NCBI GenBank assembly: GCA_000320605.2
Contig: KB445806.1
Span: 422,725 to 486,724 of the forward strand
Direction: 5' to 3'
Source of the DNA: Gelatoporia subvermispora B
Lineage: Eukaryota > Basidiomycota > Agaricomycetes > Polyporales > Gelatoporiaceae
Length of the DNA stretch: 64,000 bases
The notes under the pieces were generated by a model. It was not told the origin of the DNA. It searched no databases and saw only the letters and a list, made by a program, of their open reading frames with translations. Of the stretch, positions 39,991 through 59,345 are shown one piece after another. Each line of letters begins with the position of its first letter. The first letter of the stretch is position 1. The position numbers were made by a program, and so were the translations under genes.

Positions 39991-42008
39991 ATGCAACCAT
40001 TCACCGACGATGAGCCTCGCAGTGTACCCGACAACCGCTCGGCGTACTCGCTCGCTACTGTTCATGATGACGTTCCCTACCGCGACAACCCCTCTCCAGC
40101 CCCCACGTCCCGCACGTCTCTCCTTTCCCATTCATCCTCGGAACAGAACTATGGCGCATTAGCACCATCAACACCGTCGTCAAAACGGATTCTCATGAAT
40201 GCCGCGTTGAAGATGGCCGCCGTCTTTGTCCTCAGTACACTCTTCCTCGGCGGAACGCTATGGCTCGCGTTGCCAACTCTAGCAGAGTGCGTATCAGTCC
40301 TATCATAAAATAATGTTTATGTCGTGGCGTTCTCCTTTCCCCTCCTTTGCATCACTTCATATGGACCACCCTGTCGGCAGTACAGGATTTGTACTAAACA
40401 TATGGAGGGTTCCCGAGATGAGCAGTAAGAGCTGCAGAAGGGCCCTTCCATTATCCATCCCTTTTTGAGATGTTGTCCGTGCCACTCCGCCTCTTCTGCT
40501 TCTGCTTCTGTTCCTCTATTCCATACCTCTGCTATTCGCGGCTAAGGGACTCTCAGAGGACCCTCGAATAGCCGTGACATAGCTTGAAGTAGGGGAGTGG
40601 TGCGCATCTGAAGGGTATCGTTGCTGTCGTTGAATTTATGCAAGTGGTGACGCTTGACCCAACACGCTCTGAAACGTGAAACGCCGCTACTGGATGGTCT
40701 AAGCGCACAACCATGGCGGCTACGTCGAGCGTGCTTACATATGTCCCGCAATAGAGCCTTTGCAAACAGCGTTGCGCGGATGAAGCGGTTCAATGTAATT
40801 CTAAATTCACAGATACTCTGTACGCTTCCGTGACTTTCAAATTCCTCGCTTATTGGTACACATGCTTTTGCGCATTCATGGCCCATTCGGGCGGTCCCAT
40901 CCACGCTCAGGGTCACTGGTGTATCATGAGCGTTCTCTTTGAACTTGGGATTATTCCAGATCGTACCCATGTTTCCGCGTCAATGCTATGTTGAGATAGA
41001 CAAATATTCTGATTCTGACTTGTATTTTGTTTGCAGGGAAGACCGGCCATATTTAAAAGTGCCGAAATCCTTTGTTGAGCTTCAAGCCCTCAATACTCTC
41101 CTTAAGAAATATCGCGATATTTATCCCTACCGCATCGTTGTATGCTATGTTGTAACATACTTCTTGTGAGTACGCTCATGCAGGTTACTTGTCATACCTA
41201 ACCAAAATGCAGCCTACAAGCGTTCTCCCTCCCTGGCTCGATGTATCTCTCCATTCTCGGCGGCGCCGTATGGGGCGTCGCGCGTGCCCTGCCCCTTGCT
41301 TGCGCATGTGTTGCAACAGGAGCAACACTCTGCTACGCGATCAGCGCCGCGCTCGGACCTGCACTGCTGACTCTGCCCAAGTGGAAAGCACGACTCGACG
41401 CGTGGGCAGTGAAGATCGAAGCACACCGCGCAAACCTCATCCCCTTCCTGATCGTGCTGCGCATTGCGCCGTTCCCGCCGCACTGGGTCGTCAACGTTAT
41501 CTGCCCGCACGTGGGCATCGGCGTCGTGCCGTTCTGGATCAGCACGTTTCTCGGCATTTTCGGCGTCTCCGTCATTCACACGACGATAGGCGGGAGCCTC
41601 GACGACATGACGAGCGCAGCGGACTTCCACCTCATTTCGTGGAGGAACTTCTTCCTCCTGTCGGCCATCGTCGCGGGCGTGATGATCCCCGTCGGGCTGC
41701 GCTATGTGTTCTCGCGCGAGATCGCGAGCGTCGCGGACGTCGAGGCTGAGGCCGAGGCGGTCGCAGCGGCGGAAGAGGCGGCGGAAGTCGCGGACGAGGA
41801 CGTCGTGCTCGCGCAGGGCCCGCCGGTCGGCCCGGGCAAGGGCAAGCAGCGACAGCTGGTGATTGTCTCGGACGACGAAGAATACACGGACGATGACGAT
41901 GATGACGAGGACGTCATTCTCGAGGCCGGGCCCGCGCTGGTCGTCAAGCCCGACGATGTGCAGACGCCCGAGCGCCGGGAGTGGCGCCAGGAAGACTTGC
42001 TCGACTGA
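39991..42008 (+). CDS. VTT-domain membrane protein (TMEM41/TVP38 family)
   Basis: Three exons: 39991-40286, 41037-41165 and 41213-42008, giving 406 aa. Exon 1 encodes a Ser/Pro-rich cytoplasmic N-terminus and the first membrane helix (AAVFVLSTLFLGGTLWLALP). Exon 2 reads EDRPYLKVPKSFVELQALNT, then YRDIYPYRIVVCYVVTYF. Exon 3 opens with LQAFSLPGSMYLSILGGAVW and continues through the VTT core: FLIVLRIAPFPPHWVVNVIC, VGIGVVPFWISTFLGIFGVS, and the HTTIGGSLDD loop. The GSMYLSILGG and R-IAPFPPHW motifs are the family signature (residues about 140-290). TMEM41B/TVP38 proteins scramble lipids in ER/Golgi membranes. The last 100 residues are acidic. Intron 1 is 750 nt, more than ten times the usual size here. 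Copies of exon 1 and the start of this intron are fused to two ARID genes downstream. Confidence 0.88.
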
Positions 42009-42029
42009 GTGCCGGATCGTGACAGACGG

Positions 42030-42320
42030 ACGATGACCGAAGTGTGTTTCGTTAGATGACGGTACCCCGCATGTACACAATCCCTTAACTGGTCGCTGTG
42101 CTTTTCATCGGCCCATTTTGCTAGACTCGCTGCCCACGACCTTCCCACGAGTTGCCTTGTGCTTTCGAGACAATCCCTTATTTATTTGTTCAATCTGTCT
42201 TACGACGTCTCGGGGCGGGCTGTATCTTGTAATATTTATCGTGCCGCGTGCAGATATGGCTCGCGGCGCCTGTAATACATCTGTGCAATATCTGTACGAT
42301 GTGGTATGAGAAGGGCAACG
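42030..42320 (+). repeat. VTT-gene 3' flank, duplicated segment (parent copy)
   Basis: 3' flank of the VTT gene. Versions of it recur at 47490-47770, 55375-55650 and 59115-59345. Shared words include gtaatacatctgtgcaata, atatggctcgcg, ctggtcgctgtgc, tttcatcggcc and cgacgtctcg(g)ggcgggctgta. It should contain the 3' UTR and poly(A) site of the VTT gene. Confidence 0.7.
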
Positions 42321-43910: not shown

Positions 43911-46900
43911 ATGTATCAGCCGGATAATCCTCAACAGCCCATCCAGCCCTCCCAGATGGGTGACCTCGACTCCGACGACGCACGTATGTGGCAACAGCAT
44001 CCACAGCATTTACCACAATTCTTGAGACAACAGACTGGGTCTGCGCGCATGGGCGAGCAGCAGGTGACCCAAGTACGTTCTCCTGCTTGATCAGTCCTCC
44101 CATCGCCGTCTGTATGCGCGTGAAACGGTTCGCGAGCGCTCGTCGACGGCACAGTCCTCGCTGCAGCGCGCGATATCGCCCCTAGTGCGCCCCATTCCAT
44201 CCGCCCATTGTCAGATTTCATCACAGAGGCATCGCCCACTTTCAATCGCCGACGGCAATGTCTGAAGTTTATTCACATTGCACAGCCCCGCAGATGTAGA
44301 GCCGACGCTGACTTTGTCTCCAGCAGCAGATGCACCAGCTCTTGAGCCACCGGATGCGTCAGGAGGACCAGCAGCGTCAGATGCATTGGCAGATGGACGC
44401 AAACGCCGCGTCCCCTGTCGGCTTTCGTGATCAGGGCGTCAATCAGATGCAGCCTGGTCTGGGCATGCAGCAGATCGGGGGAAACCCTAATGCGATGCGC
44501 CTGCAGGCCCTCGCTGCAGCGGACAGCGGCCCTGCGATGATGCAGAACGCGAACAGCCCGCTACTTAATCGCCAACTCGGGATGCTTATTCAGCAGCAGC
44601 CCCCGCATGGCGGCTCTTCGTCTTACGTTAACGCGCTTGCCGCGATGCAGCGGCTGCAGATGCACAGCGCGCAGCAGGCGCAACAGCACCGGCAGCATTC
44701 AGACCAGCTGCAAGCGCCTCAGCAGTCGCAGTTCTGGCCTATGGGCGCCCAGCTCGGGCAGATGCACAGTCAAGTGCAGCAGTCGGACTTCTTCCCGTTC
44801 TCGACGGCGCAGGGCGGCGTTGATCCTGGCCATCAAGCCTCGCGCTCGATGATACTAGCGAACCCAATGATGAGCGGAGCCCAGCGTTCGATGTGGCAGC
44901 AGTCGGCGATGCAGCAACAGCAGCCGCAACGGCCCCAGCTTCCGTCGCAACAGCAGTCGCTGAATGCCGCGACAGCGCGCGGTATGATAGAGGAGATCAT
45001 CAAGCGCATAGAGACACTAAGTGATCAGATTATCGACCTCGAGAAGAAGCGCACTGCGTTGTCGCAAGACTGCGGTGCAGAAATGGACCCTACGATGGCG
45101 TTGCAACTCAAGACATACGGCGAAGAAATCCGGAAACGGAAGATGCTCATACGGCAGATGGGGTTACAGATCCAGAAACTGCAGGAAGGCATTAACGTCG
45201 CGATGGGTAGGGTGTCGATACAGCAGGCACTGCCGCAGCCGTCGCAATCGCAGATTCTCCCGCCGCGATTCCCGCCGCTAGCTCCGGAGGTCTTCGCTTC
45301 CGCGTTCGCGAACTTCTGCGCGAAGGCGAACGTCCACCCTGAACCTGCTCAGCTCAAACGAGATGGTCGTCAGATTAACCTGCACCAGCTGCACGTAGAG
45401 GTAATGAATATGGGAACAAGTTTCAGGGTACGTGGATTCGAGTTTGCGACACTCTCATATGGTGCTCACTGTGATTTTTGATCAGATCGGGAACAATGAC
45501 GACACGTGGGCGGTCATCGGCGGCAAACTGGGCTTCGTACAGTTCCCGGCGTCCGACGCTGAGCCCGCCAAATGCAGTCCTAGCATGGCGGCGCATCTGC
45601 ACCATGTCTACAAGCAGTATCTCGCGATGTTCGACTCTACGTACATCCACTCGATCGTCCGGCGCAAGAATGACATGCGTAACCAGTCTCTGCAGTCGAA
45701 TGGACAGAATATGCCGCCGCAGAACGATGAAGAGCGCCGCATACAGCTTATGAATCAAGCACAGGGTCCGTTGCCAGGCGCGCCGCCCCCGCAAGGCCTA
45801 GGGCAGCATGTTCAGATGCCTTGGCCGTCCGCGCAATCGATGGGCACATCTCCATTGTCTCCCTCGCAGCGCCCTGCTCTGAGTGCCAAGCAGAAGCCTG
45901 GGCTCAGCGGGTCGAGCGGCCTGGTCGGCCTGCAAGGCATGGATCCCACGCAATTGAACGAGTTTATGAAGTACGCGTCGGTCCCCGCACAGGAGCTACG
46001 CGCGCGCGGGATCCCCGAGGTCGCGATCAAGTGGATCGAGTCGCACCGTCCGATTCTCCAGCGCCATATCCAGCAGCAGCAGGAGTACCGCGCGGGCATC
46101 GGTGCGGGCATGAACGCGAACGCGCAACGCGCGCCGTCGAACTTGCCGCAGTCGCTCTTCAACGCGGGCGCGCAGCTGGGCCCGCAGATGTCTAATGCGA
46201 TTACTGCGGGGCTCAACATGGCCGTCGAGCAGCCGCAGGTTGCGCTGCAGATCCCGTTGCAGAACCGCGGCGCGGGCCCCGCTTCCCAGGCGCAACAGCC
46301 TCCTCAGATGGAAAACAGGATGCCAATCCCCCCTATACAGCAGCGCCGTCGGCCGACGGCCCAGGAAGAGGAGCAGGGTGCGCAGGTGGTCGAGCACATC
46401 AAGCGCGACGCGATGTCTCGTAAGTCGACTGCGAGTGTGTTAACGCAGCTTGATGCTGACGTCGTGCAGGTTTGAACAATATGCGCGTCTACAACGTGCC
46501 GGAGCATCAGCTGTTCGAGTTCAACACCCTCTTGGAGCAGGTGTACAAGTGCGCGCAGGAGATGGAGCCGAATTTGCCCAGGTTCGCTTGCTTCTGGAAG
46601 CCAGATGCGATCCGCCACGTCGTGACGATGGTGAGAGATCGGCACCGTTGTACGCTTATATCATTCTTGTGCTAACGCGGTTCCGCACAGATCGTGGCTA
46701 CTCAGCACCAAAAGCAGCTACTCGCCTCGCCCCACCCGCGCCATACTATGGAGGTGAACACTCTGCGGACGATGCTGAAGCACTTCCAGGTTGCGCTGGA
46801 GCAGTACAATAATATCACAGCGGCCCTGTACCCCGAACCTGCCCAAAACCGGCCCCAGGACCAGCAGACCCCGTCAGGGCCTTCCGTGCAGCCGATGGAT

Positions 46901-47356
46901 CCATCTCAGCTGTCTCCGTCGACGCGCCCCGCCATGAGCGCCGAGCAGAAGCCTGAGCTCAGTGGAGCGAGCGGCCTGCCTGTCATGGACCTTGCGCGAT
47001 CGACCGAGTCTATGAAGTGCACGTTGGTTCCCGCGCAAGAGCTTAGTGTGCGCGGTAGCCCCGAAGTCGTGATCAAATGGATTGAATCGCACCGTCCGAT
47101 CTTCCAGCGCACCATTCATGACGTTCCCCATCGCGACAGCCCCTCTCTAGCACTCACGTCTCGCACGTCCCTCCTTTACGAATCGTCCTCGGAGAAGAAC
47201 TATGGTGCACTAGCTCCATCAACACCATCGTCAAAGCGTATTCTCATGAATACCGCGTTGAAGATAACCGCCGTCTTGCTCCTTGCACTCTTCCTTGGCG
47301 TGGCACTATGGCTCGCCTTACCGACTCTGGAAGAGTGCGTAGCAGCTTTGTTTTGA
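43911..47356 (+). CDS. ARID-domain protein fused to VTT-gene exon 1, copy A
   Basis: Five exons: 43911-44072, 44324-45427, 45486-46419, 46470-46630 and 46691-47356, giving 1008 aa. Introns are 251, 58, 50 and 60 nt. Residues 1-270 are Gln/Met/His-rich; a coiled coil lies at about 275-350 (IKRIETLSDQIIDLEKKRTA, KRKMLIRQMGLQIQKLQEG). An ARID domain follows at about 360-480: PPLAPEVFASAFANFCAKAN, DGRQINLHQLHVEVMNMG, NNDDTWAVIGGKLGFVQFP and LHHVYKQYLAMFDSTYI. Exon 4 (161 nt) encodes LPRFACFWKPDAIRHVVTM. The last exon first repeats a segment of exon 3 (LSPSTRPAMSAEQKPELSG, PEVVIKWIESHRPIFQR). It then reads HDVPHRDSPSLALTSRTSLL and a membrane helix at about 979-998, a copy of VTT exon 1. The stop lies in former VTT intron sequence. 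The product would be a tail-anchored ARID protein. Confidence 0.72.
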
Positions 47357-47430
47357 TATTGATATTCGTGTAGTGGCATTCTCCTTTGTATACTTGTGTC
47401 TTTGTTGTAATTGTACAGTGTTATTTTTTC
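47110..47430 (+). repeat. Copy of VTT-gene exon 1 and intron start, inside copy A
   Basis: Matches 40060-40440 of the VTT gene base by base over long stretches, for example gcgttgaagat, actctggaagagtgcgta against actctagcagagtgcgta, and ccccgagatg...gagctgcag. The old donor (ga/gtgcgta) is still there but exons 2 and 3 are absent. Translation reads through into ECVAALF and a TGA. Confidence 0.75.
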
Positions 47431-47489
47431 CTTACGGCGGTCACCCCGAGATGTACGAGCTGCAGTGAGTGCTCGATACGGAGGACGAA

Positions 47490-47770
47490 CGATGGACGAA
47501 ATGTGTCTACGTAAATGATGGTTTTCCGCGTGATATACAAGTCCCTGACTGGTCGTTGTGCCCTTTCATCGGCCTCGTTCTGCAGCCTAAGACGTTTTCA
47601 TGAACTTGTAGTATACGGGAATCCTCTGTCTTTGTGTATTCGCGCTACGTTGTGATGTTTCGAGGCAGGTTGTACCTTGTATTCTGTTGTCGCGCCGCGT
47701 GCAAATATGGCTCGCGACGCATGTAATACATCTGCGCAATACTCGCGCGATTCGGGACGAGAAGCATAAT
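47490..47770 (+). repeat. VTT 3' flank duplicate behind copy A
   Basis: Equivalent of 42030-42320: ctggtcgttgtgccctttca, tttcgaggcaggttgtacct, gtaatacatctgcgcaata. It directly follows the copy of VTT intron start, so exons 2-3 of the VTT gene were lost from this copy. Confidence 0.7.
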
Positions 47771-47934: not shown

Positions 47935-48008
47935 GCCCCAAACGCGAGAAAAGTACGAAAATCCCAGTACCATTGGACTGGGATTTTCCCGCTTTTCTTG
48001 CTTTGGGC
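47935..48008. repeat. Long imperfect hairpin
   Basis: Perfect 12-base arms gaaaatcccagt (47957-47968) and actgggattttc (47977-47988) enclose an 8-base loop. Outward the pairing continues imperfectly between gccccaaacgcgagaaaag (47935-47953) and cttttcttgctttgggc (47992-48008). It could be a small foldback element or a structured transcript. No ORF spans it usefully. Confidence 0.65.
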
Positions 48009-48747: not shown

Positions 48748-50518
48748 ATGGCCAACAACCGTCGCAGGGAATCATCGAGCAGTGGGCGTGGTGAAGGCAG
48801 AGGTGGCGGTAGGACCATGCAAGCTCTCTTGGAAAACACAGCTTTCTCGGGAAACGTAAGGATGAGCCTCAGTTGAGGTGTAATACTAACCTTTCCCCTC
48901 AGTACTTTTGTTTCCAACGTGGCATGCAAGGGGACGGGTCCGCTCACCGCACGTCAAACCCAACCTATGACACTATCGTCCATCTAGAATCTCCCGTATG
49001 TATTCAAGCAGTGATTACCCGACAGCACGTCTGAACACCATCATTCCTTCACCCACTTAGCCCACACAGTCGCCTCCTCCCAGAAGCCTACACGCTTCAG
49101 TCCTCCCCAGAAGTTCGCCCCCCTCCGTCCTGCCATCCGACGGGAGCACGTTGATAGCAAGGGACACAGTAACGCGAGCGACTACGCACGAAGACCACCG
49201 CGACCAAGCCCACGGCGCACCTTATGCTGAGCAGACTGGTACAGGCTTTGGGTCCAACTCTGCTGGTGAGATGCAAGCCGGTGCAAGTGCGTTAACAGAT
49301 GCCCGATGATCTGTCATATATTGATGTGATCTGCTGTACTAGCTGAGTATTTCTGGGACACAGTCAACGACACCACCAACCACACACTTGGCCCTAGCAT
49401 GTATATGTACGCAGGCCACGGCGGCCAAGTTCACGGAGGTCAAACGTCCGGTGGACTTCCTGCTCCGCAGACTGGTGCAGGCTTCATGTCCGACTCTGTC
49501 AGTGGGATCCAAGCCGGTGCAGGTGCGTCAACCGATGCTCGACGATCTGTCACTTATTGATCTGATCGACTATCCTAGCCGAGATTTTCCGGAACGATAT
49601 TGATGACATCACCAGCTTCATGCCTTACTCTGGTGTGTCTGCGCACGCACACCACGGCGGCCAAGTCCCCGGTGGACTTCACGTTCCGCAGACTGGCGCA
49701 GACTTCACGTCCTACTCTTTCGATGAGATGCAAACAGGTGCACGTGCGTCAACCGATCCCCGATCATCTGTCACTTATGAAGGTGATCTGTTGTTATAGC
49801 CGAGTTTCCTTCGAACACGCCCTCCTCTGGGGTGCCTATGCACGCAGGCCACGGTGGCCAAGTTCACGCTGAGCTTGACGTTGCGCAGATTGGTTTCAGC
49901 TTCACGTCCGACTCCGTCGGCGGGATGCAGGTCGCTGCACGTGCGTCATCGGATGCTCGACGATCTGTCAATTGTTGATATGACCTGATGTTCTAGCCGA
50001 GTTTCCCTGGAACGATGCCAATGACATCATCAGCACCGTGCCTCACTCGATTGTGCACGCACACTACGGCGGCCAAGTCCCCGGTGGACTTTACGTTCCG
50101 CAGACTGACGCAGACTTCATGTCCAATCTTTTCGGCGGGGTGCAAACAGGCGCAGGTGCAATAACTGATACTCGAGGATCTGTCGATTATTGACGTGATC
50201 TACTGTTCTAGCCGAACTGCTCTGGAACGCACCCTCTGGCGTGCTTCTGCACGGAGGTCACGACGATCAAATTCACGGCAGCCAAGTCCAAGATGATCTT
50301 GACGTTGCGCAGTTTGATGCAGACCTCACATTCGACTCTGCGAGTGAAATGCTGGCAGCTGCAGGTGCGCTGATGCATGCTTAACTACTCGACGTTAATT
50401 GATGCGATTTGTGGCTTCAGTTAACTCTCAGTGGGACCTTGCAGGCGACTTTCCGTGGGGCTCTGTCCCCGACGATATTTTCGAAGACATGCTGGTGGAC
50501 CCTTATGATCTCGCTTGA
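48748..50518 (+). CDS. Orphan gene built of tandem exon-intron cassettes
   Basis: Nine exons: 48748-48855, 48903-48995, 49061-49286, 49343-49522, 49579-49743, 49800-49940, 49997-50155, 50212-50364 and 50421-50518, giving 440 aa. All phases join. The product matches no family I know. It starts with a basic Ser/Gly-rich segment (MANNRRRESSSSGRGEGRGG). Exons 4-8 are paralogous. Each starts with (A/T/P)E followed by Y/I/F/L and F/P/L, continues with HA(H/G)HGGQV and (L)HVPQTGADF or DVAQIGFSF, and ends in Q(T/A)GA or AA. Exons 3 and 9 look like edge units. Introns 3-8 are each exactly 56 nt, begin gtgcgt or close to it, share gatctgtca in the middle and end in tag (cag in the last). The C-terminus (DFPWGSVPDDIFEDMLVDPY) is acidic and aromatic, like a transactivation segment. 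A repeated secreted or structural protein is an alternative, but no signal peptide is seen. Confidence 0.68.
49287..50420 (+). repeat. Tandem exon-intron cassette array, period about 195-235 bp
   Basis: Intron plus following exon is repeated five times (49287-49522, 49523-49743, 49744-49940, 49941-50155, 50156-50364), with a sixth intron at 50365-50420. Introns all measure 56 nt, while exons vary in multiples of three (180, 165, 141, 159, 153 nt). Units alternate in type: units 5 and 7 share gtccccggtggactt, and units 6 and 8 share cttgacgttgcgcag, suggesting that a two-cassette block was duplicated. Confidence 0.75.
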
Positions 50519-51628: not shown

Positions 51629-51712
51629 TTGCCCCTTTTGGCTACTTACCCCTTTTGGATATTTGTCCCTTTTGGATACTTGCCCCTTCTGGTAATTTCT
51701 CCTTCTGGTCAG
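51629..51712. repeat. 17-bp tandem repeat, five units
   Basis: Successive units ttgccccttttggctac, ttaccccttttggatat, ttgtcccttttggatac, ttgccccttctggtaat and ttctccttctggtcag lie head to tail. The flanks (ctttctggcaag before, cttccggcaag after) are weaker versions. Typical minisatellite. Confidence 0.75.
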
Positions 51713-52925: not shown

Positions 52926-55294
52926 ATGCTTCCCGATAATTTCAACGCGGGCCTCCTGGGTCAGCCAGGCATACCCCAGCAGATGGGCGGGGTGCCGCGG
53001 CGCACAGTATCGATGCGGCAGGCACAGCAGCAACAAATACCACAGTTGTTGCAGTCGACGCAAATTCTCCCGCCTCGATTCCTGCCTCTGTCGCCGGACG
53101 CCTTCGCTTCCGCGTATGCAAACTTCTGCGCGAAGGCGAATGTCCATCCTGACCCTTCTGAGCTCAACCGAGATGGCCGTCAAATTAACTTATACCAGCT
53201 GCACATAGAGGTTATGAATATGGGAACAAATCTCAGGGTGCGTCAATATGGATTCACATCTCTCTCATCTGGTGCTCATGATGACTTCCTATCAGATGGA
53301 AAACGACGACGACGCGTGGGCGACTATCGGCGGCAAGCTAGGCTTCGTACAAATCCCAGCGTCCGACACCGAGCCCGCCAAATGCGGTTCTGGTATGGCG
53401 GCACATCTGCATCACGTCTACAAGCAATATCTCGCGACGTTCGACACGATGTACATCAACTCGATCGTCAGACGCAAGAACGAAATGCGCAATCAGACTC
53501 TGCGGGTGTTCGGACGGAATATGTCACCGCGGAACGACGAGGAGCGTCGCATGCAACTCATGGATCAAGCACACGGTGGGCGATCGGGCGCGCAGCTCCC
53601 GCAAGGCGTGGGGCAGAATGCTCAGATACAAGGGCTGTCCGCGCTATGCACATCTCAGTGGTCTCACCCGCAGCGTCCCGCCATGAGCGCCGAGCAGAGA
53701 CCTAATCTCAGCGGACTGAGGGGACCAGCTGGCCTGTCAGGCATGGACCCTGCACGACTGAACATGTTCGTGAAGTACGCGTGGGTCCCTGCGCAGGAGC
53801 TCCGGGCGCGCGGCATCCCCGAGGTCGCGATCAAATGGATAGAGTCCTATCGTCCTATGCTCCAGCGCCATATCCAGCAGAAACAGGAGTACCACGACGA
53901 CACCGGTGCGGGCATGAACGCGAACGCGCAACGCCCCGCGTCGAACTTGCCTGCAAGTCTCTTCATCGCGGGCGGGCAGCAGGGCCAGCAGATGTCCAAC
54001 TCCATCTCCGCTGGGTTCAATATGCGTGTGGAGCAGCCCCAGGCTGCACTGCAGATCCCGCTGCAGAGCGGTGGTACGGGCCCCGCGCCTCAGGCGCAGC
54101 AGCCACCTCAGATGGCGAACATGATGCCGATTCTCCCTATCCAGCAGCGCCGTCGGCCGTCGGCTCAGGAAGAGGAGCAGGGTGCTCAAATCATCGAGCA
54201 TATCAAGCGCGACGTCGTGTCTCGTAAGTTGAGCGCAGCTGCAGTTTCGCGGCCGATGTTGATCTCGTGTAGGTTTGAGTAAAATGCGCGTCTACAGCAT
54301 GCTGGATCACCACCGACTTGAGTTCCACGCGCTCTTGGAGCAGGCATACAAGTACGCGCAGGAGATGGAACCGAATCTGTTTAGATTTGCTTGCTTCTGG
54401 AAGCCAATTTTGGTCCGCCACGTCGTGACTATGGCGAGTGATCAGTACTGTCATATATTGGTCTCAAGTTGACACAATTCCGTGCAGGTCGTGTTTGCTC
54501 AGCACCAGAAGCAGCTGCTCGATTCAGCCCAACCGTCGTATACTCTGGAGGAGAACACTCTGCGCACCATGGTGAATCACTTCCAGGCCGCACTCAAGCA
54601 CTACAACAGCCTCACGGCAGTCTTGTATCCTGAGCTTGCCCAGAACCGGTCGCAGACTGAGCAATTCCTGCAGGTGCTTTCCAGACACATCATGCCTCCA
54701 CAGAACGCTGGTGAACGCCGCGTGCAGCTCATGAACCAGGTACAGAGTAGGCAATCAGGCGCGCCTGCCACGCAGGACCTGGGGCAGAATGCTCAGACGC
54801 GAGGACCGTCCGTGCAGTCGATGCGCTCATCTCAGTTGTCTCCCTCGCAGCGCCCTGCCATGAGCGCCGAGCAGAAGTCTGCGATCAGCGGACCGAGCGG
54901 CCTGGTCGGCCTGCCAGGCACACACCCCGTGCGGTTGAACGGGTCCATGAATCACGCGTCGGTTTCTGCACAGAAGCCTTGTCCGCGCGGCATCCCCGAA
55001 GTCGCGATCAAGTGGGCGCAGTCGCGTCGTCCAATCCTCCCGCGCACCATTCATGACGTCCCCCACTACGACAGCCCTTCCCCAGTACCGTCGTCTCTCA
55101 CGTCTCTCCTTCCCAATTTGTCCTCGGAGAAGAATTATGGTGCATCAGCTCCGTCAACACCGTCGTCAAAATGGATCGTCATAAATACCGTGTCGAAGGT
55201 GACGGTTATCTTTGTCTTCAGTATCCTCTTCCTCGGCGGCATTCTGTGGCTTGCCTTGCCAACTTTAGAAGAGTGCATATCAGCTTTCTCCTAA
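52926..55294 (+). CDS. ARID-domain protein fused to VTT-gene exon 1, copy B
   Basis: Four exons: 52926-53237, 53296-54223, 54273-54433 and 54488-55294, giving 735 aa. It matches copy A from the ARID domain on, but lacks the long Gln-rich N-terminus and coiled coil. The ARID is at residues about 40-165 (PLSPDAFASAYANFCAKANV, DGRQINLYQLHIEVMNMG, NDDDAWATIGGKLGFVQIP). The third exon is 161 nt. Its donor is gcgagt where copies A and C have gtgaga, so the last intron is GC-AG. The last exon repeats more of exon 2 than in copy A (SRHIMPPQNAGERRVQLMNQ, LSPSQRPAMSAEQKSAISG). It ends with the VTT-derived part: IHDVPHYDSPSPVP, NYGASAPSTPSSKWIVIN and a membrane helix at about 705-725. The product is predicted to be anchored by its tail. 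The gene is continuous over 2.2 kb of exon, which suggests selection or youth. Confidence 0.7.
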
Positions 55295-55375
55295 ACTTAT
55301 GCTCATGCCGTGGTATCCCCCCTCTCCGTTCGCGTGTCTGTTCAATATCTCTGTATACCCATGGAGGTCACTCCG
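55040..55375 (+). repeat. Copy of VTT-gene exon 1 and intron start, inside copy B
   Basis: Equivalent to 40060-40440. The VTT donor gtgcgt is changed to gtgcat here, so the splice site is lost and the frame ends ECISAFS with a TAA. Confidence 0.72.
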
Positions 55376-55650
55376 AGATGAGCATTGTAAGCCGCAGTGG
55401 ACAAATAATGATCTTCCGCGTGTATACAAGCCACTGGCTGATCGCTGTGCTCTTTCATCGGTCTTGTTCTGCTGGCCCGACGCTCCCACGAGTTTTCTTG
55501 TACTTCTATGACATCCTTCCCTTGTTCATTTATTCGCCCTACGTCGTAATGTCTCGAGTCGGGCTGTATCTTATACTGGACTGCGGAGCCGCGCACAGGA
55601 TTGTTCGTGGCATTGCATTTGTACACTAATGTATCTGTGCAGTATGTCTA
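55375..55650 (+). repeat. VTT 3' flank duplicate behind copy B
   Basis: Equivalent of 42030-42320 (cactggctgatcgctgtgct, tttcatcggtcttg, tacgtcgtaatgtctcgagt, cgggctgtatctta). Confidence 0.65.
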
Positions 55651-57997: not shown

Positions 57998-58955
57998 ATG
58001 GAAGGTAACACTGATTTCGGCAATCAGGCTTCAAGTCCCGCGCCCCATGATGCAGGCAAACCAAACGGTGAACGCAGTCCCACATTGGATGTTGCAGCAG
58101 CCGGCGATGCAACAGCAGGACTTCCGGATCTGCGCCGCGTTGGCGCGGGCACGAACGCGGTCAATGTGCGCGTAGAGCAACCGCAGGCCGCGTTGCAGAA
58201 CGACGGCGCGACCCCTGCTCCCCAGGCACCCCAACCTCAGACGGAGAACAGGAGGCCGATTCCCCCTATCCTGCCCCGTCGTCCGACGGCTCAGGAAGAG
58301 GAGCAGGCTGCGCAGGTGGTCGAGCATATCTGGTGTGACGCGGTGACTCGTAAGTCGATCGCAACTAGGTATCTAGACAGCCGGATGTTGACGTCGCGCA
58401 GGTTTGAACAATATGCGCGTCTACAACGTGCCGAATCACCAGCGAACCGAATTCAGAGACCTCTTGGTCCAAGTATACAAGTATGCGCAGGAGATGGAGT
58501 CGAATCTGCCCAAATTCGCGTGCTTCTGGAAGCCAGATGCGATCCGCCATGTCGTGACCATGGTGAGAGATAAGCACCACTGTACACTGATATTTTTCTC
58601 GTCCTGACGCGGTTCCACGCAGATCGTGGCCACTCAGCACCAGAAGCAGCTGCTCAGCTCAAGCCACCCATGCTATATCTTGGAAGTGAACTCTCTGCGG
58701 ACGATGGTGAAGCACTTCCAGGCTGCGCTTGAGCAGTTCAATAACCTCATGGCAGCCCTGTATCCCGAGCTTACCCAAGACCAGTCTCAGAACGAACAGG
58801 TCCCTCCGGGGCTTTATACTCAGCCAATAGGTCAATCTCAACTGTCTCCCTCGCAGCGCCACGCTATGAGTGCGGAGCAGAAGCCCGATCCGAGCGGATC
58901 GAGCGGCCTCCCTGACCTGCCAGGCATGGTCCCACGTGATTCAACGAGTTCATGA
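57998..58955 (+). CDS. Truncated ARID-family paralogue, copy C (no ARID, no anchor)
   Basis: Three exons: 57998-58349, 58402-58562 and 58623-58955, giving 281 aa. The introns are 52 and 60 nt. It starts with MEGNTDFGNQASS and then matches copies A and B from VEQPQAALQ onward. Exon 2 is 161 nt (LPKFACFWKPDAIRHVVTM). The final exon starts IVATQHQKQLLSSSHPCYIL and runs into LSPSQRHAMSAEQKPDPSG. Near 58929 one base is missing relative to copy A (ggtcccacg for ggatcccacg), which ends the frame at MVPRDSTSS. Behind the stop the old frame still spells CGIPEVAIKYTDSHGPIFQR. The ARID domain, coiled coil and VTT exon are all gone. It may be transcribed but is probably on its way to becoming a pseudogene. 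Confidence 0.55.
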
Positions 58956-59114
58956 AGTAAACATCGGATTCTGCACACGAACTTCGTGCGTGTGGCATCC
59001 CCGAGGTCGCGATCAAGTACACTGACTCGCATGGTCCGATATTTCAGCGCATCATTCTTGATTCTATCACGCTACCTCTTCAGCACCCAATACGAGCTGA
59101 AGTAAGTACTCGAG

Positions 59115-59345
59115 ACGATGGACGGATCATGGATTAAATTTTTGTTTTGTGCTTATCCATATATAAACCCCTGATTTATCACTGTGCTCCTCCCTTGGCC
59201 TCGTCTTGCTGCCGACGACTCTATCACGAACTTGCATGTGCTTTCACGACGTTTTGACCCTTATTTATTCATTCGCAGTGTGATGTATTGTCTCGAGGCG
59301 AGCTGTATGTTGTATGTTGTACTAACACCAGGTGCCCATGAATAT
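59115..59345 (+). repeat. VTT 3' flank duplicate behind copy C
   Basis: Equivalent of 42030-42320 (gagacgatggacggatcat, cctgatttatcactgtgctc, tgtattgtctcgaggcgagc). The VTT exon 1 copy itself is missing here; only a short cacccaatacgagctgaag joins the two. Confidence 0.6.

Follow-up and report, generated by a model that had tools for sequence, protein, structure and literature searches.

How a gene comes to carry a run of introns of exactly the same length, set between exons that resemble one another, is the question raised by a locus of the white-rot fungus Gelatoporia subvermispora B, a polypore of the family Gelatoporiaceae. We analysed this locus, referred to here as the cassette gene, within a 64-kb window (the whole stretch of DNA under study). 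A nine-exon model on the forward strand (48748–50518), when spliced and translated, gave a 440-aa protein identical over its full length to the hypothetical protein CERSUDRAFT_118009 of the same strain. The locus is already in the database as a deposited prediction, and what is deposited is a predicted gene; its locus tag was not found in the literature searched. The features of the model are listed in Table 1.

Table 1. Exons and introns of the cassette gene, in positions of the 64-kb window.
Feature	Position	Strand	Description	Basis
Exon 1	48748–48855	+	Arg/Gly/Ser-rich N terminus, non-repeated	Gene model and deposited protein
Intron 1	48856–48902	+	47 nt, phase 0, TACTAAC branch-like word	Gene model
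Exon 2	48903–48995	+	Non-repeated	Gene model
Intron 2	48996–49060	+	65 nt, phase 0	Gene model
Exon 3	49061–49286	+	First B module is the final 91 nt (49196–49286)	
Intron 3	49287–49342	+	56 nt, phase 1	Gene model
Exon 4	49343–49522	+	A and B modules, 180 nt, symmetric 1-1	
Intron 4	49523–49578	+	56 nt, phase 1	Gene model
Exon 5	49579–49743	+	165 nt, symmetric 1-1; nearest B module is that of exon 7	
Intron 5	49744–49799	+	56 nt, phase 1	Gene model
Exon 6	49800–49940	+	141 nt, symmetric 1-1; 8-codon gap common to exons 6 and 8	
Intron 6	49941–49996	+	56 nt, phase 1	Gene model
Exon 7	49997–50155	+	159 nt, symmetric 1-1	Gene model
Intron 7	50156–50211	+	56 nt, phase 1, donor GTGCAA	
Exon 8	50212–50364	+	153 nt, symmetric 1-1	Gene model
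Intron 8 (deposited form)	50365–50420	+	56 nt, strongly diverged; in-frame alternative acceptor 50444 would give 80 nt	
Exon 9	50421–50518	+	A module-like from 50445, then acidic C terminus and stop	

The initial annotation held that introns 3–8 are all 56 nt long and share one phase, and this was borne out: an AG lies at exactly 56 nt in each, and all six split codons in phase 1. Introns 3–7 were 71–80% identical (40–45 of 56 positions) in all ten pairwise comparisons, against a mean of 14.5 and a maximum of 30 of 56 in 20,000 shuffles. Intron 8 matched introns 3–7 at 28–31 of 56 positions (50–55%), and a MAFFT alignment of all six was free of gaps. The shared words reported for these introns stood in part: the central word GATCTGTCA is exact in introns 3, 4 and 6, carries one change in introns 5 and 7 and is absent from intron 8, and the donor GTGCGT is common to introns 3–6, with GTGCAA and GTGCGC as variants in introns 7 and 8, respectively.

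The exons around these introns are repeated as well. A 96-nt exon module (B) occurs in six in-register tandem copies at spacings of 236, 221, 197, 215 and 209 nt, the other five copies being 72–84% identical to the reference copy, which agrees with the claim that the exons between the introns are paralogous; here the paralogous copies are adjacent. A phase-1 intron comes after each B module, and after that intron a short A module, which begins with a Glu or Asp codon and an aromatic or aliphatic residue (EYFW, EIFR, EFPS, EFPW, ELLW and DFPW). The first B module forms the end of exon 3, exons 4–8 each consist of A plus B, and the last A module lies in exon 9. Because B, intron and A follow one another in this order in every copy, the natural unit is B-intron-A. 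The lengths of exons 4–8 are all multiples of three, so the statement that exon lengths differ only by multiples of three is true of these exons. No further copies were found elsewhere in the 37.7-Mb genome by DNA, protein or intron-pattern searches in which only the best candidates were scored.

Since exons and introns are jointly paralogous, whole exon+intron units appear to have been duplicated in frame, the mode of growth that had already been proposed for this gene. We put at roughly 85% the reading that the gene grew by repeated intragenic duplication of the B-intron-A unit, that its introns inherited an ordinary length and that the copies then drifted under selection for an open frame and acidity. 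The duplicated unit would have been about 200 nt long, comprising a B half-exon, a single ordinary-length intron in phase 1 and an A half-exon, and the molecular event would most simply have been unequal crossing over between repeats. Each duplication would bring in a further symmetric 1-1 exon together with an intron and leave the frame unbroken, because the ends of the unit share a codon phase and the unit carries its own splice sites. Equal intron lengths would then reflect descent from one intron that was already close to the commonest length in the genome. Afterwards the sequence of the repeats would have drifted almost freely, with dN/dS mostly fairly close to 1; selection would meanwhile have maintained an open frame and an acidic composition with hardly any Lys or Arg, of the sort found in disordered polyanionic segments. 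Separate histories of exons and introns were also considered, as exons 5 and 7 are alike and their introns are not; this candidate was set aside at a Fisher p of 0.072, the lowest of ten pairs and uncorrected.

The constancy of intron length had been taken to suggest a splicing constraint, in which these introns need 56 nt for intron definition or RNA structure. We consider this quite unlikely. Introns 3–7 do contain no indels, although 38 differences separate them from their majority consensus, but the probability of this was 0.15, 0.022 or 0.003 at assumed indel:substitution ratios of 0.05, 0.10 or 0.15, which makes the lack of indels mildly unexpected at most. Also in favour of a constraint, retention of any of the six phase-1 introns (49287–50420) would introduce an in-frame stop in six of six cases; in introns 3–7, 56 nt and one exon base add up to 19 codons, which places the acceptor UAG in frame. 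Against a special constraint, 56 nt proved an ordinary length. In a survey of 264 kb of this genome in which the cassette gene was masked, donor–branch–acceptor motif pairs exceeded background at 40–80 nt (81–138 pairs across four motif definitions), and 56 nt ranked first among intron-like lengths under three of the four definitions (one tie with 52) and second, behind 52, under the fourth, the exact modal length being uncertain because counts at 56 nt were small (11–22). Moreover, the cores of introns 3–7 differed at 0.260 per site, about as fast as codon positions 1, 2 and 3 of the exon B module (0.274, 0.323 and 0.273; permutation p 0.24–0.42); with the sixth unit added, the values were 0.346 for the intron core and 0.282, 0.347 and 0.293 for the exon positions. 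Within the intron core the longest run of invariant positions was 7, which is not unusually long (permutation p 0.17), folding of the six introns as individual single strands gave z-scores from -1.98 to +0.73 with lowest-energy structures that were unlike by eye, and intron 8 may be spliced in an 80-nt form. The 56-nt length is thus most simply inherited and ordinary for the genome, with a mild general limit on intron length as a possible contributor. A greater conservation of introns than exons, seen with all intron sites and synonymous estimates, was rejected, as it disappeared when splice-site bases were left out and the comparison was restricted to the ungapped B module.

The 80-nt form of intron 8 follows from an alternative in-frame acceptor at 50444, 24 nt downstream of the deposited one. 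Exon 9 read from 50445 matched the starts of exons 4–8 at a mean of 8.8 of 15 nt; none of the other starts among the 105 tried did better, and a fraction of 0.0004 of 5,000 background starts reached this level. The deposited start at 50421 gave 8, 4, 6, 7 and 5 of 15 nt. As judged from exon homology, acceptor 50444 fits better than the deposited acceptor of intron 8. There may have been a 24-nt insertion beside this acceptor, to be spliced either as exon (the deposited form) or as intron (the 80-nt form).

It is improbable, in our estimate, that the array is a decaying or never-coding repeat and its open reading frame an artefact of gene prediction. Such an origin would account for the equal variation among codon positions and for protein searches that returned no relatives. 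Pairwise Nei–Gojobori dN/dS among exons 4–8 was 0.41–1.46 (ten pairs) and mostly near 1; these values show no sign of strong purifying selection at the residue level and, alone, fit nearly free drift. Yet exons 4–8 are free of stops, their lengths differ by multiples of three and all six introns have GT–AG ends. Under neutral drift the lack of stops would be only slightly surprising (P 0.02–0.19, depending on the assumed divergence). Codon usage also spoke for the coding frame: frame 0 of the spliced coding sequence scored 0.097 bits per codon, the best of six frames (the others -0.202 to -0.026), compared with -0.081 (sd 0.027) for shuffles and an interquartile range of 0.009–0.216 for the 28 long ORFs in the genome sample.

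That a protein is made and is under selection appears to be best supported by the frame-specific exclusion of basic residues, the gene itself being a predicted one. The 261 codons of exons 4–8 encode no Lys, one Arg and 30 Asp+Glu. In neutral simulations, in which the consensus was randomly substituted with the observed 145 differences on the assumption that the phylogeny is a star and the ancestor the majority consensus, the same exons encoded 11–12 basic and 21–22 acidic residues. For one or fewer Lys+Arg the probability was 0.0002 under either of two substitution models, and this outcome occurred in 0 of 3,000 replicates of a third run, and the Asp+Glu excess had P 0.004–0.02, all for a composition test that was post hoc, chosen after the composition was known. 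The basic-residue test gave P 0.15–0.95 in the other five frames. The signal came mainly from Arg, as Lys alone in exons 4–8 (0 versus 2.5 simulated) was not significant (P 0.07). The whole protein has no Lys, where position-preserving shuffles of the coding sequence expect 9.0 and none of 5,000 lacked it; absence of Lys alone is not unique, since 2 of the 28 long ORFs of the genome sample, some of them possibly spurious, also lack it. The composition bias, which is seen in the coding frame alone, can be read directly from the DNA, as can the tandem paralogy, the phase and the lengths; as the cause of the bias we infer selection. That exons and introns diverge about equally while basic residues are excluded in the coding frame only suggests that selection on composition can be visible where dN/dS shows little.

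It is very improbable that a single introner-like mobile intron invaded a repeated exon on its own: introns 3–7 are near-copies, but the flanking exons are paralogous and the position of the intron is identical in every unit, no similar introns were found in unrelated genes of the same genome, and both a 33-nt pattern allowing up to 3 mismatches (five places in the 37.7-Mb genome) and an intron-4 probe (two places, at low sensitivity because the probe missed other introns of the cassette gene) matched only within the cassette gene.

The initial annotation knew no family for the encoded protein, and a Pfam profile search indeed returned none at E ≤ 1, DNA-binding domains included. Queries with the full protein and with residues 110–440 matched only CERSUDRAFT_118009 itself (among 7,085 and 7,248 candidates, respectively), and a 166-aa query without the internal cassettes had no match among 54 candidates; these protein searches need shared 5-residue words and so may have missed fast-evolving relatives. 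The gene is so far known from this species alone and is probably protein-coding. Its predicted product is acidic, lacks lysine and is probably disordered: net charge was +2 over residues 1–66, -30 over residues 119–400 and -9 over residues 401–440. A single-sequence AlphaFold2 prediction had a mean pLDDT of 34.6 and a pTM of 0.16, and low pLDDT in such a model is compatible with disorder and is no proof of it.

According to the available text of PMC8137143, activation is governed by acidic and hydrophobic content and not by motifs, and the available text of PMC10550315 gives a charge and WFYL rule for acidic activation domains, derived for human factors. Like those domains, the predicted protein is acidic and probably disordered and has aromatic and Leu residues (PMC10550315, PMC8137143). 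Under the strict form of the human-factor rule (equation 1 of PMC10550315, as given in the available text: 39-aa tiles with charge ≤ -9, WFYL ≥ 7 and a balance of the two), none of the 402 tiles of the deposited protein qualified, and no DNA-binding domain was found; eight tiles qualified with acceptor 50444, and a strict tile arose in 37 of 2,000 shuffles of the deposited protein. The relaxed form (equation 2) selected 19 of 402 tiles, at residues 367–440, and no tile of the deposited protein that starts before residue 367 was selected by either form. We therefore offer only tentatively the picture of an acidic, disordered protein inside the cell: its C terminus would act like an acidic activation or co-regulator domain, and its cassettes would serve as an acidic spacer of variable length.

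The surroundings of the gene are themselves repetitive. Gene segments that we label ARID-like, from weak Pfam matches below the curated cut-off, flank the cassette gene at 45249–47387, 53059–55313 and 58180–59061, with pieces 71–78% identical: 45249–46858 and 53059–54655 share 78% identity, and 46247–47121 and 58183–59061 share 77%, the third place being a shorter match. Such duplicated segments on both sides point to a region prone to duplication. Among tandem arrays with a period of at least 100 nt, there were none in 21 arrays of a sampled 200 kb and one in the 18 rows for the 64-kb window, which is the cassette gene. A further segment is common to 40067–40338, 47118–47387 and 55053–55313, the first being 77–80% identical to the other two; the copy at 47.1–47.4 kb encodes a hydrophobic tail, probably membrane-spanning, and the ARID-like copies thus seem to be joined to a tail that also occurs near 40 kb. 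Similarity of 69–71% downstream of the copies (42025–42313, 47484–47764, 55403–55575 and 59160–59314) suggests that the duplications include 3′ flanks. The window also holds an imperfect inverted repeat of about 70 nt upstream of the cassette gene (47937–48007), a tandem repeat of 3.8 copies of 17 bp downstream of it (51629–51692) and an ORF at 41202–42005 that matches the VTT domain (E 7.9e-9) and passes the curated cut-off.

Symmetric exon+intron units are known to duplicate in frame. In metazoan tandem exon duplication, symmetric exons copied with their introns keep the frame, as in the cassette gene; the metazoan cases usually have fewer copies, lie in genes for conserved domains and are often subject to mutually exclusive splicing. 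No fungal tandem exon–intron array appeared among the titles and abstract openings searched, which mostly do not cover subscription papers. The process at this locus is of a known kind, and the best parallel in the literature searched is the Tetrahymena LRR genes with 90-bp exons, for which the available text of PMC6564038 proposes unequal crossing over, possibly with retrotransposition. Those genes, like the cassette gene, are built of tandem exon+intron units in one phase with a characteristic intron length, and many of the units are species-specific (available text of PMC6564038). The Tetrahymena system, as described there, comprises thousands of LRR genes with exons of exactly 90 bp in phase 2 and a LINE-like element nearby (PMC6564038), whereas the fungal case is one gene with exons of 141–180 nt in phase 1, without a known domain and with no second locus found.

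The cassette gene, in which six exon–intron copies lie side by side, offers a small, clean example of an orphan gene that would have expanded as spliced units were copied in frame. It may go further, though we hold this doubtful, and be an expandable orphan for a disordered acidic protein: the number of self-contained, symmetric cassettes would set protein length, selection would act on bulk charge (by excluding Lys and Arg) and on frame instead of on sequence, alleles would vary in their number of cassettes, and any subset of the five exons could be skipped in frame. If true, it would be a fungal case of a disordered region growing modularly by whole spliced units.
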